Shown here in pieces: positions 13,556 through 19,894 of a stretch of 64,000 nucleotides of DNA. The stretch is from positions 1,054,001-1,118,000 of the forward strand of contig NZ_CP119559.1 in assembly GCF_029278565.1 (NCBI RefSeq), read 5' to 3'. A model generated the notes under the pieces. The model was not told the origin of the DNA, did not search any database, and saw only the letters and a program-made list of their open reading frames with translations. This DNA comes from Haloarcula halophila. GTDB lineage: Archaea > Halobacteriota > Halobacteria > Halobacteriales > Haloarculaceae. Position numbers and translations under genes: made by a program. The stretch's first letter is position 1; each line of letters opens with the position of its first letter.

Positions 13556-14341
13556 TCACCTATTTGTTGTGTTTCCAACGTCGTCGAGGTGATCACGGAG
13601 CCGGGCGAGCGGCCGGAGATCGTCCGAGAGCATCAGCCGTGCGTACTGTCCCCAGAGCCACCCGATCCCATCGACGAGGGTGAGCGTCACGAACAACAGG
13701 GCGAACCCGACGAGCGACATCGCCATCGCGTCGGGAAGCGAGTCGACAGCCCACTCGCTCATCGTGAGCCCGACTTCCGCACCGACCAGGAGGTCACCCC
13801 AGGGGATATACAGCGACTGTGTGAGTCCGATCGGCTCCCCGGGAAAGATACCGACCCGTCCCGGAGCGCTGTCGTAGTACAGCGGCGTCGCCACGAAGGT
13901 CAGGGACATCGCGAGGGAGCTGACCAAGAAGACGAACGATCCCATCCCGAACGCGAACACGCTGAACAGGTAGAGCAGTTCGGTCCAGGTAAACCGATCG
14001 ACCACGAGTGCGACCACGCGTTCGCGGACCGACCCATCCAGGAAGCCGTAGGCCGGGGCCGGAACGTCGACACCGAGGAGTGCGGTGACGAGGTGTCGCT
14101 CGACCAGTCCGAGTCCGCGGGCGAGCAACAGGACGCCAACGCACAACGGGACGCCGACGAGAACGAGCACCGTCGGGACGGCCGCCGTCACGCCCGTCAC
14201 CAGCACGACGAAGTAGACGGTTCCCAGCGGAAAGGCGACGAAGAGATACAGTGCTCGGAGGTACGGTCGGGGACGAACGGGGGCCAGGAGGAGCGATCTG
14301 AGGGTCGGAAGACGCTCGCGGAGTTGACGACCGGCGGACAT
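13556..14341 (-). CDS. Stand-alone membrane 'sensor' domain protein (PF13796-like), copy 1
   Basis: Start at the ATG 14339-14341 (MSAGRQLRERLPTLRSLLLA), 261 residues. It shows the arrangement of the putative sensor domain otherwise found in front of bacterial histidine kinases: two N-terminal helices (YLFVAFPLGTVYFVVLVTGV, VLVLVGVPLCVGVLLLARGL), a loop with RHLVTALLG, two later helices (ELLYLFSVFAFGMGSFVFLVSSLAMSLTF and ALLFVTLTLVDGIGWLWG) and an extracellular segment with PLYYDSAP. No kinase is attached. It is divergent from the winged-helix gene at 14447 and shares its 105-nt promoter region. Homologous to the protein at 15515-16183. Confidence 0.78.
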   Translation of the reverse strand: MSAGRQLRERLPTLRSLLLAPVRPRPYLRALYLFVAFPLGTVYFVVLVTGVTAAVPTVLVLVGVPLCVGVLLLARGLGLVERHLVTALLGVDVPAPAYGFLDGSVRERVVALVVDRFTWTELLYLFSVFAFGMGSFVFLVSSLAMSLTFVATPLYYDSAPGRVGIFPGEPIGLTQSLYIPWGDLLVGAEVGLTMSEWAVDSLPDAMAMSLVGFALLFVTLTLVDGIGWLWGQYARLMLSDDLRPLARLRDHLDDVGNTTNR

Positions 14342-14446
14342 ACCGTGCGTTGACCGTCGGTCGGGCACCGACAAAAAACATGCCGAGGACGACGGTTCTG
14401 AGACACTGGCGGGGGGTTAATATGGCCTACCCCGCAAACACGGACG

Positions 14447-14809
14447 ATGCCCTCGGTCGTCGGCGAGGTCCGCGATGTCGACGAAGAGCTCCTCGCTTTG
14501 CTCGACGACGAGTACGCCCGGACGATACTCGTCGCGACACGCGAGGAGAGCAGGTCCGCCCAGGCCCTGAGCGAACTCTGTGACGCCGACGACTCGACGA
14601 TCTATCGCCGGATCGAGCGGTTACAGGACCGGGACCTGCTGGACGCACACCAGCAGCTCGATCCGAACGGGAACCACTACAAGACCTATTCGGCCCGACT
14701 CGAACGGGTCGAGATCGAGTTCCACGACGACGGCGTCACCATCGACGTCGACAGACGCGAACCGGCGGCCGACCGGTTCACCAGACTGTACGAGGAGTTC
14801 ACAGGATGA
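14447..14809 (+). CDS. Winged-helix transcriptional regulator (ArsR-like), copy 1
   Basis: A 120-residue DNA-binding protein. Residues about 13-70 form a winged helix: DEELLALLDDEYARTILVAT, recognition helix DDSTIYRRIERLQDRDLL, then a wing with NGNHYKTYSARLERVEIEF. The same architecture and many of the same residues occur in the regulator at 16186. It overlaps the following membrane-protein gene by ATGA (14806-14809), so the regulator and its membrane neighbours are made together. It probably reads a signal via the membrane proteins or represses this locus; both are inferences. Confidence 0.85.
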   Translation: MPSVVGEVRDVDEELLALLDDEYARTILVATREESRSAQALSELCDADDSTIYRRIERLQDRDLLDAHQQLDPNGNHYKTYSARLERVEIEFHDDGVTIDVDRREPAADRFTRLYEEFTG

Positions 14810-15159
14810 CCGCACACCCACCTACACTCCGTGTCGGGGCCGACCCCTACACACAGGTCACGGTCGAAGGTGGCGGGACCGTCGTCGGTCTGCTCGCGAT
14901 CGCGACGTTCCTCGTCGCGACGGTGCTGTCAGTACTCGTGACCTATCGGTTCGTCCAGGGGTATCGCCGGTCCAGAGCCACGCCGATCCTGTTGCTCGCG
15001 GTCGGGATGTTCCTGCTCGCGCCCGCACCGATGTTCGTCCGGTTCGTCGCCGGGAACCTCGTCGTCGTCCCCTCGGCGGTCAGAGTCCTGACCACCTCCC
15101 TGCTCGAATCGGCCGGTCTGCTGACCATCCTCGTCGTCGTCTACGGAGGGAGCCGATGA
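14806..15159 (+). CDS. DUF7521-like small membrane protein A
   Basis: A 117-residue protein with three hydrophobic segments: TVVGLLAIATFLVATVLSVLVTYRF, ATPILLLAVGMFLLAPAPMFV and LTTSLLESAGLLTILVVVYG, with the YRFVQGYRRS segment between the first two. Haloarchaeal proteins of this pattern occur next to winged-helix regulators. It overlaps the gene before it and the gene after it by four bases each (ATGA), so all three are translationally coupled. It looks like a paralogue of the next gene, which carries FQGYRRNDSPTMRALAVG at the same place. Function unknown. Confidence 0.75.
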   Translation: MTAHPPTLRVGADPYTQVTVEGGGTVVGLLAIATFLVATVLSVLVTYRFVQGYRRSRATPILLLAVGMFLLAPAPMFVRFVAGNLVVVPSAVRVLTTSLLESAGLLTILVVVYGGSR

Positions 15160-15434
15160 GCTGGCTCGATCTGCTCGCGACGGGGAGCTCGCTCGTGACC
15201 GCAACACTGGGAACCGTCGTCGCTATCCTGGCGTTCCAGGGCTACCGGCGCAACGACAGCCCCACGATGCGAGCGCTCGCGGTCGGCATCATCGCGATCG
15301 CGGTCGTCCCGTACCTCCTCGCGTCGGTAATCGCTCCGTTCGTGGCCCTCAGCGACGCACAGGCGTTGCTCGCCGCCACGCTCTCACACACTATCGGGCT
15401 GCTCGCGATCTACCGGACGTTCGATTCTGGGTAA
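15156..15434 (+). CDS. DUF7521-like small membrane protein B
   Basis: A 92-residue protein (MSWLDLLATGSSLVTATLGT) whose ATG overlaps the preceding stop (15156-15159). Three hydrophobic segments, with FQGYRRNDSPTMRALAVGII after the first, mirror the protein encoded directly upstream, so the two are a tandem pair, possibly forming a heteromer. An alternative longer reading in the same frame would overlap two genes and is rejected. Function unknown. Confidence 0.75.
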   Translation: MSWLDLLATGSSLVTATLGTVVAILAFQGYRRNDSPTMRALAVGIIAIAVVPYLLASVIAPFVALSDAQALLAATLSHTIGLLAIYRTFDSG

Positions 15435-15476
15435 TAAAACTACCGGCCATCTGTCGGCTCACCAGCCGGTTGACCC

Positions 15477-15486
15477 CTTATACCGT
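15477..15486 (+). promoter_or_regulatory. TATA-like box for the second sensor/regulator pair
   Basis: CCCTTATACC is centred about 28 nt before a GTG at 15509 and 34 nt before the ATG at 15515, giving a leaderless or very short-leader transcript. Confidence 0.45.
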
Positions 15487-15514
15487 CCCAGGCCTCGTCC
15501 GTGGAACTGTGACG

Positions 15515-16183
15515 ATGACGACCCGATCGACCTCAGACACGTTCGCACAGTTTGTCCGTATCCCCTTCGAGGAGACGACCTACAGACGCCTCGCCTATCT
15601 CCTACTGGCCGGTCCGCTCGGTTTCGTGTACTTCGTCGGTGCGACCACCGGCATCTCGACGGGCCTGAGCCTCTCGACGATACTGATCGGCCTCCCGATC
15701 CTCGGCCTGACGCTGCTGGCCGTGACGGGTGCGGCCTGGCTGGAGGCACACCTCTCCCGGGCGCTGTTGGACCAGGAGACGCCAGTCCCGACCGCACTGT
15801 CGACGTTCCAGCGGGGGCTGGACGATCCCGAGACGGACGTACTAGCAGCCTGCAAGGCGTTTCTCGTCGACCCGACGACCTGGACGAGCCTCGTCGTCGT
15901 GCTGTTGAAGTCGGTGTTCGGCCTGGTTGCCTTCGTCGCACTCGTGATAGCCGGTTCGGTCGTCCCCGCACTGCTTGCCGCCCCACTGCTGTACGACGAT
16001 CCGACGGTCACCTATCAGGCCGGGAGTCTCACCGTCACCACCCTGCCCGCAGCGCTCGGCCTGGCTGGACTCGGCGTGCTCCTCGGACTGGTGGCGTTGC
16101 ACGTCCTGACCGCGCTGGCCGATCTGGGCGGGTATCTGACCGACGCGCTGCTCTCGGTCGAACAGACCGACCCCACGGAGTAA
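15515..16183 (+). CDS. Stand-alone membrane 'sensor' domain protein (PF13796-like), copy 2
   Basis: Start taken at the ATG 15515 (MTTRSTSDTFAQFVRIPFEE), 222 residues; a GTG two codons upstream and an ATG at 15470 are alternatives, but the TATA-like box at 15477-15486 excludes the latter. The order of elements matches the protein at 13556-14341: TTYRRLAYLLLAGPLGFVYFVGATTGI, a second helix with GLPILGLTLLAVTGAAW, then EAHLSRALLDQE, two long helices and APLLYDDP (PLYYDSAP in copy 1). No kinase domain is attached. It is followed after 2 nt by a winged-helix regulator, so one operon. Proposed role: membrane signal input to that regulator (inference). Confidence 0.78.
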   Translation: MTTRSTSDTFAQFVRIPFEETTYRRLAYLLLAGPLGFVYFVGATTGISTGLSLSTILIGLPILGLTLLAVTGAAWLEAHLSRALLDQETPVPTALSTFQRGLDDPETDVLAACKAFLVDPTTWTSLVVVLLKSVFGLVAFVALVIAGSVVPALLAAPLLYDDPTVTYQAGSLTVTTLPAALGLAGLGVLLGLVALHVLTALADLGGYLTDALLSVEQTDPTE

Positions 16184-16185
16184 CC

Positions 16186-16539
16186 ATGGCACAGACACAC
16201 CACCCACAGACCGCCGACAGAGCCACAGAGGCACCCGAGGAGACGATCAAGGCGACCGAACTCGTCGCGCTGCTCGACGACGACCACGCCCGCGAGATCA
16301 TCACTGCGATCACCGACGAGGCGAAGTCCGCCCGCGAGATCGTCAGGGAGTGCAACAGCTCCCGGCCGACGGTCTACCGGCGGCTCAACCGTCTTCAAGA
16401 GGCTGGGCTGGTCACCACGGAGATGCGCTACGACAGCGACGGCCACCACTGCAAGACGTTCAGACTCCGGTACGACTCCGCGTCGATCCGCCTCGGTACC
16501 GACGGACTGTGTTGTACTGTCGAAGCCAGTGACGCCTGA
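16186..16539 (+). CDS. Winged-helix transcriptional regulator (ArsR-like), copy 2
   Basis: A 117-residue protein. After a polar N-terminus the winged helix reads TELVALLDDDHAREIITAIT, recognition helix SSRPTVYRRLNRLQEAGLV and a wing with SDGHHCKTFRLRYDSASIRL. The pattern LLDD.(Y/H)AR...(S/P)T.YRR..RLQ....L......(N/D)G.H.KT is shared with the regulator at 14447, so the two are paralogues. Two bases separate it from the sensor-domain gene. DNA target and signal are unknown. Confidence 0.85.
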   Translation: MAQTHHPQTADRATEAPEETIKATELVALLDDDHAREIITAITDEAKSAREIVRECNSSRPTVYRRLNRLQEAGLVTTEMRYDSDGHHCKTFRLRYDSASIRLGTDGLCCTVEASDA

Positions 16540-16571: not shown

Positions 16572-17399
16572 TTACAGCTCCTCACGCTCCGCATCGAAGA
16601 ACTCCGAATCGGCATCGACAGCGCCGATGTCGTCGTCCTCGTCCTCGTCCGTCCGAAGCTGGAGGAACGCGTCCGTCGCAACCGCGATCCCGAAGACCAG
16701 AACGACCGCGTTGACGACGACACCGACCAGTGCCCCGGCGATCGGGCTCACGAAGTTGAGTATCGTCGCCGGGATCGACGCGAGCAGCGAGATGAACCAC
16801 ACGAGGACCAGCAACAGGAACAGGTCGATACGGTTGCCGGTCGCGAGTTCCCAGGACCTTGAGAGCGCGTCGAGCCCCTTGTCCTCCAGCGCGATCGCCG
16901 GGCGGACGAAATAAAACGACACGGCCAGGAAGACACCCGGGAGGAGCAGGAACACGAGTCCGATCCCGACAGCGAGGTTGACGACCAGCCCCAGCAGGAA
17001 CGCGGTCACCGTCGCCATCCCGATGTTCCGCGTCGCGGTGTCGGGGATCGTCGCTCGCTCGTCGCTGGCGACCACCCGGATGGTGACGATGCGAAGCGCC
17101 TCCGAGAGGACGGCGAGTCCGAGCGACAGTGCCGCAACCACCGGGAGCGACAACGGCAGCGCGAGGGGCATCGACTGGCCTCCGGGTGCGAACGGGAACG
17201 GCTGCTCTCCCATCCCCGGGCCGCCGGGCATCGTCTCGAAGGACGATCGGACGAACTCCAGATACGACGTGAAAAGCGATTGCCCGACGACGGTGTTGAC
17301 CAAGCCGAAGGCGACGAACACCCCGAGCAGGAGCAACCCGTTCCGGTCGGTGAGCCGTTCGACTCCGTTCGAGATGGCGTCACCGATGTCGAGACTCAC
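16572..17399 (-). CDS. Multi-spanning membrane protein of unknown function
   Basis: A 275-residue protein with about six hydrophobic helices: GLLLLGVFVAFGLVNTVVG, LALPLSLPVVAALSLGLAVL, GMATVTAFLLGLVVNLAVGIGLVFLLLPGVFLAVSF, LFLLLVLVWFISLLAS and AGALVGVVVNAVVLVFGIAV. The element YFVRPAIALEDKGLDALSRSWELATGN, between two helices, is typical of the DUF975/glycerophosphodiester-phosphodiesterase membrane-domain group of YciC-like proteins. The C-terminal tail is strongly acidic. In the 153-nt gap upstream (17400-17552) a TTATTAC element near 17513 is a possible promoter. Function unknown. Confidence 0.7.
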   Translation of the reverse strand: MSLDIGDAISNGVERLTDRNGLLLLGVFVAFGLVNTVVGQSLFTSYLEFVRSSFETMPGGPGMGEQPFPFAPGGQSMPLALPLSLPVVAALSLGLAVLSEALRIVTIRVVASDERATIPDTATRNIGMATVTAFLLGLVVNLAVGIGLVFLLLPGVFLAVSFYFVRPAIALEDKGLDALSRSWELATGNRIDLFLLLVLVWFISLLASIPATILNFVSPIAGALVGVVVNAVVLVFGIAVATDAFLQLRTDEDEDDDIGAVDADSEFFDAEREEL

Positions 17400-17552: not shown

Positions 17553-19133
17553 TCACACCTCGTCGAGGGAGAACCCGTCGAAGCGTCGGACCGCGTAGCT
17601 GTAGCCGCCCACCCCGATGCCGACGATGACGAGAAGATAGACGGCCCAGACGCCCGCGAGCAGGGTAGTCTCGTCACTGTTGACCGTCAGATCGACCAGG
17701 AAGTGCCCGCCGATCGCCGGGACCAACCCGCCAAGCGAGTAGCCGAACAACACGAACATCGAGGGGTGTGCCCGCTCGACGTTCATGTATTCGCGGCGCT
17801 CGAAGGCCGGTACCGCTGCACCGAACCACAGCGCCGTCCCCGCCCCGCAGCCGGCCAACACCAGCGCGTGTGCAGCGTGTGCGATCGCCAGTTCTCCCCC
17901 GACGGCGTAGACGTCGAGCGGGAACCCGACAGCCAAGACGAGACCGGCACCGACTGTCGTCCCGGCGACGATTCGGCCACGGAGGAGCACCGCCGTCGAT
18001 CGCGCACTCGTCAACAGGACGGGCAGTTGCTCCCGTTCGTCACCAAGCGGGTTCAGCCCGAACGTCGCCCCCGCGAGCAGGACGGCCACGACGTAGACGG
18101 TTCCTGGCCCGAGCGACACCAACAGTCCCGGGTCGGTCGCGAAACTGGCAAGGAGGCTAAACAGCCCGAACGCCACGGGGAACAGGTGGCTCAGGATCGC
18201 CGGGTTCCGCCGCGCTCGCAGCAGATACCGCCAGCCGATCCGCGCCGCCGGCGTCCGATCGAACGGCCACGGGACCGTCCCGCTTCCGGCGGCGGTCCCG
18301 TCTTCCTCAACGACGAGCAGTGCGTGCTCGGCACTGGTCGCGACTGCTACACTGAGGACCGCGATAGCGGCGATCCCGACCGCTACTGCGGTGCCAGTGA
18401 CGGTGACCGACCCCCCCAACGGGGCGACGACGAGTCGGGCGTACGCCTGCAGCGGTGCCCCGGGTACGACGGCTGTCTCCGGATACCCGCTCCCGGACCC
18501 CTCGACAGCTCCCCTGACGGCGACCTGTGACCCGACGTACAGCGCCGCCACAGCGACGAGGCCTAGCGTGACTCGTGTCCACCCGCCGACGCCGAGTCGG
18601 TGGCCGACGAGACGCCCCGTCGACCCGAGCGCACGGCCCCCAACCAGGGACGCGAATAAGACCGGGAGCAGTCCGACGCCGACGAGTATCGGTGCCAGCA
18701 ACCCCCGAGCACCGACCGAGATCGCAGCCAAGCCGACGCCACAGAACGGGACGACGAAGACGCCGACCTGGAGGAGTTCACTCCCCGCACGTCCGACGAC
18801 GACCGCCCGCGGGGCCGTCGCAGTCCGGACGAGCGGTCCGACGCGGCCGAGCTCGCTCTGGCTCATCGCTGTCGCACCGCCGAGGTAGAGTCCGCCACCT
18901 GCGACGCCGGCGACGGCTACCCCCAGGCGGCCGATCGGGGGGTCCCCCGCCCCCAGTTCCTGCCCGACAGCCATCGCCGGACCGATCAGTCCCAGCGGCG
19001 CGAGGACCCCGAACAGCACCACCAACAGGACCGTCGACAGGAGTTTTCGCGGCTGTTTCCGTATCCCGCGCACCCGACACCGGAGTTCGGTCGTCGCGAG
19101 TGCGCGCGCTGCGTGCAGTTCGTGGCGTCTCAT
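17553..19133 (-). CDS. ABC transporter permease (ABC-2 like)
   Basis: A 526-residue polytopic membrane protein with about a dozen hydrophobic segments and a short basic N-terminus (ATTELRCRVRGIRKQPRKLL). A central soluble stretch EEDGTAAGSGTVPWPFDRTPAARIGWRYLLRARRNPA splits it into two halves, and GATFGLNPLGDEREQLPVLLTS lies in the second half, as in haloarchaeal ABC-2 export permeases. Its start overlaps the ATPase gene by four bases (19130-19133). With that ATPase it forms an exporter; the cargo is unknown. Confidence 0.88.
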   Translation of the reverse strand: MRRHELHAARALATTELRCRVRGIRKQPRKLLSTVLLVVLFGVLAPLGLIGPAMAVGQELGAGDPPIGRLGVAVAGVAGGGLYLGGATAMSQSELGRVGPLVRTATAPRAVVVGRAGSELLQVGVFVVPFCGVGLAAISVGARGLLAPILVGVGLLPVLFASLVGGRALGSTGRLVGHRLGVGGWTRVTLGLVAVAALYVGSQVAVRGAVEGSGSGYPETAVVPGAPLQAYARLVVAPLGGSVTVTGTAVAVGIAAIAVLSVAVATSAEHALLVVEEDGTAAGSGTVPWPFDRTPAARIGWRYLLRARRNPAILSHLFPVAFGLFSLLASFATDPGLLVSLGPGTVYVVAVLLAGATFGLNPLGDEREQLPVLLTSARSTAVLLRGRIVAGTTVGAGLVLAVGFPLDVYAVGGELAIAHAAHALVLAGCGAGTALWFGAAVPAFERREYMNVERAHPSMFVLFGYSLGGLVPAIGGHFLVDLTVNSDETTLLAGVWAVYLLVIVGIGVGGYSYAVRRFDGFSLDEV

Positions 19134-19894
19134 CGATCCGGTGCCGGCTGCTCGCTCGTCAGTTCGAGGAAGACGTCTTCGAGGCCCGCGCCGGTCGGCA
19201 CGTCCGTTCCCGCGGCGCTGTCGGCCAGTTCGTCCGGTGGCCCCTCGGCGACGAGGCGTCCCTCGTGGAGGACGCCGACGGTGTCGGCGATGGCTTCGAC
19301 GACCGGGAGGATGTGCGTCGAGAGGAACACCGTCGTCCCGCTGTCGGCCAGTTCCGTGACTAGAACCCGCAGCGTCTTCGCCGCCCGCGGGTCCAATCCG
19401 CTCGTCGGCTCGTCCAGAAAGACGACCGTCGGGTCGTGCTGGACCGCCTGGACGAACGCGAGCTTCTGGGACATCCCCTTCGAATAGCCCTCGATACGCT
19501 GGTCCAGATCGGGTGCGAGTCCGAGCCGCTCGACGAGTTCCAGTGCCCGGTCCGCGACGGCGTCCCAGTCGAGCGAGCGTACGTCGGCCGCAAACTGGAG
19601 CTGTTCGCGTCCCGAAAGGTCGTCGTACAGCGGTGGCTCCTCCGGCAACAACCCGATCTCACCGACCAGTTCCGGTCGGTTCCGGCTGTCGACCCCGGCG
19701 ACGCGTGCCTGTCCGCCGGTCGGTTCGACGAGGCCGGTGAGCATCTCCATCGTCGTCGTCTTCCCGGCCCCGTTGGGACCCAGGAAACCGTATACCGTCG
19801 CCGAACCGACAGTGAGATCGAGCCCGTCGACGGCCGTCGTCGAGCCATACGTCTTCTGGAGGGACTCCGTCTCGATCGCTGGAGGACCACTCAT
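19130..19894 (-). CDS. ABC transporter ATP-binding protein
   Basis: A 254-residue ATPase with Walker A (GFLGPNGAGKTTTM), Q-loop region (IGLLPEEPPLYDDL), signature (YSKGMSQKLAFVQAV; S-K-G-M-S-Q replaces LSGGQ as is common in this ABC-2/drug-export class), Walker B (VVFLDEPTSGLDP) and the H-loop (FLSTHIL). It drives the permease encoded directly downstream. The upstream 96 nt to secY hold a possible promoter and the end of the ribosomal operon. Confidence 0.94.
   Translation of the reverse strand: MSGPPAIETESLQKTYGSTTAVDGLDLTVGSATVYGFLGPNGAGKTTTMEMLTGLVEPTGGQARVAGVDSRNRPELVGEIGLLPEEPPLYDDLSGREQLQFAADVRSLDWDAVADRALELVERLGLAPDLDQRIEGYSKGMSQKLAFVQAVQHDPTVVFLDEPTSGLDPRAAKTLRVLVTELADSGTTVFLSTHILPVVEAIADTVGVLHEGRLVAEGPPDELADSAAGTDVPTGAGLEDVFLELTSEQPAPDR

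Follow-up and report, generated by a model that had tools for sequence, protein, structure and literature searches.

Several published systems bear on the locus described here, and are cited from excerpts. HAAS-PadR dyads with Toastrack have been presented as an alternative to two-component systems that needs no kinase, with Toastrack argued to be an intracellular domain (Ravi et al. 2024, PMC11237479), and the Listeria regulator LltR represses its own operon (Hauf et al. 2019, PMC6624303). In Bacillus subtilis, SdpI is both a membrane receptor and an immunity protein, and sequesters SdpR upon a signal (PMC1626106). The PF13796 Sensor domain has been reported fused to kinases, in HisKA_3 proteins of Streptomyces (PMC10663231), whilst an account of Psp systems in bacteria and archaea assigned the DUF4097 part of LiaG to the extracellular side and gave PspC a chiefly signalling role in Halobacterota, with no mention of PF13796 or DUF7521 in the excerpts used (PMC9239133). 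Here we describe a six-gene locus of Haloarcula halophila (Halobacteriales; genome G000, contig NZ_CP119559.1), contained in a stretch of 64,000 nucleotides (positions 1,054,001 to 1,118,000) that was analysed whole and is termed the window. The locus is conserved and is probably a haloarchaeal variant of kinase-free membrane-to-DNA signalling, undescribed in the literature searched, outside of which lay subscription papers and preprints; that literature yielded no description of DUF7521 or of the haloarchaeal ‘sensor domain-containing protein’, and solely bacterial accounts of PF13796.

The locus encodes two stand-alone Sensor proteins (SensA and SensB), two helix-turn-helix (HTH) regulators (HTH1 and HTH2) and two small membrane proteins (DUF7521a and DUF7521b). 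An earlier, sequence-only reading had proposed these six genes, all of which were confirmed as open reading frames (ORFs), and its families for the membrane proteins were upheld, the best scores going to those it had named and not to an alternative. SensA and SensB scored 108.2 and 92.6 bits, respectively, against a PF13796 cut-off of 28.2, both across the entire profile (1-162 of 162), and were 33% identical over 158 amino acids (E=1e-16). DUF7521b was a clear match to PF24365 (45.3 bits; gathering cut-off 27) and DUF7521a fell just under the cut-off (25.4 bits), though it aligned with DUF7521b by BLASTP (33% identity over 82 amino acids, E=2e-8). Their genes overlap by ATGA, as had been noted (15156-15159), and a like overlap joins HTH1 and DUF7521a (14806-14809). 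HTH1 gave only below-cut-off HTH matches in Pfam (best E=1.8e-6) and was 37% identical to HTH2 over 89 amino acids (E=6e-21), an alignment containing the pattern LLDD..AR...YRR..RLQ...H.KT that had been put forward as common to both regulators. Pfam searches found no kinase or receiver domain in the six proteins, and a two-component reading was rejected on the lack of histidine kinase and receiver domains; PspA/LiaH and PspC also had no Pfam match in the six proteins, to which that search of the genome was confined.

PF13796 was present in 229 of 392 genomes and in 71 of the 95 genera of the order. A total of 120 neighbourhoods were taken from the best-scoring PF13796 matches, such that the sampled loci are the best-scoring part of the matches, and 11 distinct listed loci lie outside the sample. 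Genes were called with a codon model and labelled with iterated profiles, the training of which on the same loci favours cassette members. With the window included, 119 of 121 loci were counted, as L126 and L133 (L and G numbers denote loci and genomes) contained no sensor according to the gene caller and profile. One gene order recurred over these loci, in which SensA is divergent from a series of HTH1, DUF7521a, DUF7521b and SensB. Since everything except HTH2 recurs as a block across the order, the pattern is not one of chance. The two paralogous sets of the sequence-only reading are instead a single ancestral cassette, in which one HTH and two DUF7521 genes are flanked by the two sensors, and HTH2 is a genus-level add-on. 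The latter was present in five Haloarcula cassettes only (the window, G396, G393, G201 and G177), was not found at the G394 and G395 loci, where there was just an HTH1-like match, and grouped with other proteins that lack the C-terminal tail motif described below, in a tree of few columns. A minimal form, with SensA divergent from an HTH and a single DUF7521 gene, was seen in Haloferax elongans and H. larsenii (L215 and L241).

The sensor phylogeny (n=159) comprised clade A (70 sequences, including the protein encoded at 13556), clade B (47, including that encoded at 15515) and a third clade (42), with SH-like (Shimodaira-Hasegawa-like) supports from a quick method of 96, 81 and 99 at the respective forks; SensA and SensB are members of two old paralogous clades. 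Six-frame profile searches of 5 kb around each sensor found an HTH near 62/70 clade A and 43/47 clade B sensors, as opposed to 3/42 in the third clade, and DUF7521 near 63/70, 42/47 and 0/42, respectively. Sensors of clades A and B occurred at the same locus in 40 instances, and 41 of the 77 A/B loci held the complete set of at least two Sensors, an HTH and at least two DUF7521 genes. HTH and DUF7521 were found together at 64 of these 77 loci, compared with none of the 42 third-clade loci. The third clade is an internal control, with the same domain and no regulator nearby in 39 of its 42 members. Sensor-regulator linkage is strong but clade-specific, which supports the suggestion of a non-kinase membrane-to-DNA module for the A/B sensors; the check that the sequence-only reading had proposed, whether sensor and regulator always co-occur, gave a negative answer. 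Third-clade sensors (e.g. L104, L114 and L134) had other neighbours, such as a cluster of 453-amino acid Nramp-type transporters at six loci.

Table 1. Features of the cassette and its divergent promoter region, by position in the window.
Feature	Position	Strand	Description
SensA	13556..14341	-	Stand-alone PF13796 Sensor, clade A; Pfam E=5.7e-31
Dyad GTCGGT-N5-ACCGAC	14356..14372		SensA/HTH1 promoter region; candidate operator only, from repeat search
GAGAC	14400..14404	+	Invariant across the divergent regions of 6/6 Haloarcula loci; 17 nt upstream of the TATA-like box
TTAATA	14417..14422	+	TATA-like box of the HTH1 operon, invariant at 6/6 Haloarcula loci; putative promoter role
HTH1	14447..14809	+	ArsR-like winged-helix regulator with C-terminal helix; Pfam HTH matches all below cut-off
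HTH1 C-terminal helix	14765..14803	+	Candidate docking tail, amino acids 107-119 (...ADRFTRLYEEF); motif and model
DUF7521a	14806..15159	+	PF24365 E=1.8e-5, below cut-off; paralogue of DUF7521b
DUF7521b	15156..15434	+	Small membrane protein with QGYRR loop; PF24365 E=1.1e-11
SensB	15515..16183	+	Stand-alone PF13796 Sensor, clade B; Pfam E=3.4e-26
HTH2	16186..16539	+	Tail-less winged-helix paralogue after SensB; HTH_20 E=1.7e-10

Of 146 genomes of the order, 133 contain DUF7521 itself, as do 120 of the 122 good ones. At DUF7521-centred loci (43, being 46 rows minus the Sensor-centred L001-L003), an HTH lay upstream on the same strand in 42, and the genome of the window carries 13 DUF7521 genes, 12 of them with a same-strand HTH upstream. 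Given these counts, the HTH-DUF7521 pair is the wider unit, to which the sensors are one attachment. In Salinarchaeum laminariae both DUF7521 domains are encoded by a single 236-amino acid ORF (L194, 6110-6820). With somewhat less than even confidence, we propose that this dyad is the main system by which haloarchaea signal across the membrane without kinases, present several times per genome, in which the ArsR-like HTH would dock by its C-terminal helix on a small membrane adapter and differing input modules would be plugged in, here the PF13796 Sensor pair, in many cases accompanied by an exported Toastrack. Kinase-free envelope-to-gene signalling is poorly known in archaea, and the pair is an apparently unstudied dyad found in nearly all sampled haloarchaea that offers a specific candidate contact, between the C-terminal helix of the regulator and the inner loop of DUF7521.

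The HTH1 model (AlphaFold, pLDDT (predicted local distance difference test) 84.4) is a clear ArsR-like winged helix, for which Foldseek returned an E-value of 1.1e-4. VIA-align was applied to HTH1 alone. The closest structures were those of Phr and CzrA/SmtB, with alignments to the Pyrococcus heat-shock regulator Phr (2p4w; Z 12.6, 110 aligned residues, root-mean-square deviation 5.6) and to 2oqg (Z 11.3, 75 aligned, 1.8). In the model, the C-terminal helix has a pLDDT of about 67-72. A tail motif, [FLI]xx[LMIFA][WYFV] within the last 22 residues, was present in all 123 HTHs followed by DUF7521, in 2/14 HTHs without DUF7521 and in 285/1475 other called proteins; one of the two exceptions, L010, has a DUF7521 by Pfam. 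HTH matches near locus ends, duplicates and frames of fewer than 75 or more than 160 amino acids were omitted from this count. A stricter pattern, which was tried first, gave 114/122 versus 2/22. HTH2 has no such motif. The helix of HTH1 is a candidate docking tail.

In bacteria, one scan of named genomes returned 80 loci, from which 34 sensor proteins were examined (one 63-amino acid fragment of 35 pieces was omitted), a sample biased toward sequences resembling the archaeal query. Where a kinase or an HTH shares the polypeptide, the Sensor domain occupies the N-terminus, which is the input end. Kinase fusion had been supposed to be the usual state in bacteria; amongst these archaeal-like relatives, however, a LuxR-type HTH was on the same polypeptide in 14/34, HisKA_3 in 6/34 and a protein kinase in 1/34. 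Such fusions show that the Sensor family can couple directly to a DNA-binding domain, and support direct sensor-to-DNA coupling. In a Chloroflexi metagenome-assembled genome (MAG), the gene after a stand-alone sensor encodes a protein whose LiaF-TM match is weak and below cut-off (L225, E 1.2e-4).

Hydropathy predicted SensA to have four transmembrane (TM) segments with both termini inside and an acidic 64-amino acid TM3-TM4 loop outside, ahead of a C-terminal cytosolic helix; the outside loop of SensB is shorter. The AlphaFold model of SensA (pLDDT 87.5) likewise has four long TM helices and the C-terminal helix, with a low-confidence beta-hairpin region outside (residues about 160-200, pLDDT 63-65). 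It had no fold match in the PDB (best Foldseek E 2.5), and no sequence match to solved structures below E=0.026. DUF7521a has three TM segments by hydropathy and a positively charged, arginine-rich TM1-TM2 loop (QGYRR), whilst DUF7521b has two by the same cut-off. The reading that we favour, at about even confidence, is that the locus acts as a membrane-to-DNA switch without a kinase, by which HTH1 is either retained or let go, with topology and folds predicted, and contacts, direction of control, signal and targets inferred. SensA and SensB, as 4-TM proteins and perhaps as a heterodimer, would sense conditions in the membrane or envelope by way of the TM bundle and the outside loop, the latter with a beta-hairpin in SensA. 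DUF7521a and DUF7521b would act as small membrane adapters, the arginine-rich inner loop holding the amphipathic C-terminal helix of HTH1. A signal would alter the Sensor/DUF7521 complex, such that HTH1 is kept at the membrane or freed, and thereby switch the divergent SensA/HTH1-operon promoter together with other targets. An exported Toastrack lipoprotein, where present, may be an outside partner or output. In favour of such a switch are the conserved cassette, the linkage of clades A and B to the regulator, the HTH-DUF7521 dyad, the tail correlation, the bacterial Sensor-HTH fusions, the Toastrack neighbours with their export signals, the two-domain ORF of S. laminariae, and the higher identity of HTH1 and DUF7521 than of the Sensors and flanking genes to their counterparts in the nearest relative.

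The divergent region holds several elements that may bear on such control. The TTAATA box sits 25-30 nt before the HTH1 start, a leaderless-type spacing, and GAGAC is a possible contact for the regulator or for transcription factor B (TFB). A palindromic motif search of 46 non-redundant divergent regions recovered mainly an element of the SensA promoter (ATAA..., some 28 nt away from where SensA starts); the GTCGGT-N5-ACCGAC dyad was not recovered as an order-wide motif. Many SensA genes (L055, L088, L115, L136, L161 and others) have the ATAA element at this approximate distance from their start codon, and the shared spacing suggests that SensA transcripts are leaderless.

Several observations weigh against a switch of this kind. 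For eight of 70 clade A and four of 47 clade B sensors, no HTH lies within 5 kb, and the Sensor domain does not need a regulator, because third-clade sensors manage without one. The third PF13796 sensor of G000, a clade A member (L145, C1:780500-792500), has neither DUF7521 nor an adjacent HTH of the HTH1 family, and L007 (C2:154623-154868) is the sole DUF7521 gene of that genome without an upstream HTH. No order-wide operator was found: in 45 regions from which the SensA element had been removed, the patterns were weak and inconsistent, with likelihoods above those of six shuffles each yet no single consistent site, and they are not relied on. The tail pattern was devised after the sequences had been seen, and the sequences are related; moreover, most of the 14 controls are from other HTH subfamilies, hence the correlation may reflect subfamily membership.

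An alternative is an SdpRI-like or self-protection operon, with HTH1 as an autorepressor, the membrane proteins as effectors against a peptide, a halocin or lipid stress, and sensing secondary. The operon starts with a putative repressor and carries small membrane proteins, Toastrack and MMPL are among the neighbours, and the SdpR/SdpI logic is that of a membrane receptor doubling as an immunity protein (PMC1626106). The best NCBIfam match of HTH2 was also to the SdpR autorepressor family (4.8e-7), albeit well under the cut-off; for this subfamily (NF033789) HTH1 and HTH2 scored 12.8 and 29.6 bits, relative to a cut-off of 100. We nonetheless regard this explanation as unlikely, since neither DUF7521 protein matches SdpI, no toxin or peptide gene was seen among the unlabelled neighbour clusters scanned, the ten commonest (peptides of fewer than 50 amino acids were not called), and bacterial members of the Sensor family are joined to signalling domains.

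In the ArsR-type family, a regulator often shares its operon with a transporter. HTH1 might accordingly be an ordinary ligand- or metal-responsive regulator of that type, as its fold and its nearest structures would allow, with the membrane genes in its operon by happenstance and no physical coupling between them. The C-terminal helix tracks adjacency to DUF7521, however, the same partners recur across an order and bacterial Sensor-HTH fusions exist, which make an uncoupled regulator improbable.

Toastrack (DUF4097) was found within 5 kb of 40/70 clade A, 29/47 clade B and 2/42 third-clade sensors, and MMPL near 6/70, 2/47 and 1/42, respectively. By locus, Toastrack was present at 43 of 77 A/B loci, with none labelled near the window cassette, and a match (E <= 0.01) lay within 3.2 kb at 6 of 30 DUF7521 loci; 43 of 46 Toastrack proteins had a twin-arginine translocation (Tat) motif plus a lipobox. 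One adjoins the third sensor of G000, at C1:786163, and similar solitary sensor-Toastrack(-MMPL) loci were seen at L052, L075, L098 and L119. On Acidimicrobiia-type contigs (L198, L200 and L233), an MMPL-like gene directly precedes a kinase-sized Sensor, an arrangement that echoes the haloarchaeal sensor-Toastrack loci with MMPL. These MMPL genes, in haloarchaea and beside the kinase-sized Sensors, and the G000 sensor with Toastrack and without DUF7521, would fit Sensors that form part of a complex for lipid or transport maintenance (MMPL, ABC (ATP-binding cassette) transporters, Toastrack) and are regulated by the HTH instead of feeding it. This is very unlikely, given that few of the neighbours are MMPL or ABC genes and that bacterial Sensors take the N-terminal input position in kinases and HTH proteins.

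Relative to the nearest same-locus relative (G396), HTH1 was 93% identical, DUF7521a 85%, DUF7521b 86%, HTH2 85%, SensB 74% and SensA 71%, with flanking genes at 70-73%. HTH1 orthologues (at least 70% identity) occurred in just 6 of 30 Haloarcula genomes, and the cassette is therefore patchy within the genus. Amongst six loci compared, its flanks were common to G396 alone, and the ABC transporter that flanks it in the window (17553-19894) was not seen next to the cassette in G177 or G201. A viral origin was considered and rejected, no SensA relative having been found in viral contigs. At 16572-17399 the window encodes a membrane protein resembling DUF7544, though below cut-off; G000 holds six matches to it, and 28 of 30 Haloarcula genomes have matches as well.

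As a putative kinase-free membrane-to-DNA switch, the cassette may be compared with three known arrangements. Like SdpR-SdpI of B. subtilis (PMC1626106), it joins a small regulator and a polytopic membrane protein in one operon, though neither DUF7521 nor Sensor has an SdpI match in Pfam and no toxin ligand was seen. It shares with the PF13796 kinase or LuxR-HTH fusions, several of them from Chloroflexi MAGs, the same Sensor family upstream of an output, but in haloarchaea the sensor is encoded on its own, occurs twice and is accompanied by DUF7521 and an ArsR-like HTH. With the HAAS-PadR and LltR modules, as the excerpts depict them (PMC11237479, PMC6624303), it has in common a stand-alone winged-helix regulator, a multi-pass membrane protein and the lack of a kinase, together with a nearby DUF4097/Toastrack gene at 43 of 77 A/B loci, though none labelled near the window cassette. 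The components differ, in that the haloarchaeal cassette uses two Sensors and two DUF7521 proteins with a regulator whose fold is nearest ArsR/Phr; no HAAS (DUF1700-like) match was obtained in the six proteins at E<=1 in Pfam (for HTH2, among the best 25 of 32 matches), a search that did not extend to remote homology, and PadR (PF03551) reached 16.1 and 21.1 bits, below its cut-off of 27. Haloarchaeal Toastrack is, by its motifs, a Tat lipoprotein, in contrast to the intracellular domain argued for in the excerpts of Ravi et al. (PMC11237479). By analogy, the haloarchaeal cassette would work like the HAAS-PadR and LltR modules, built from different families.

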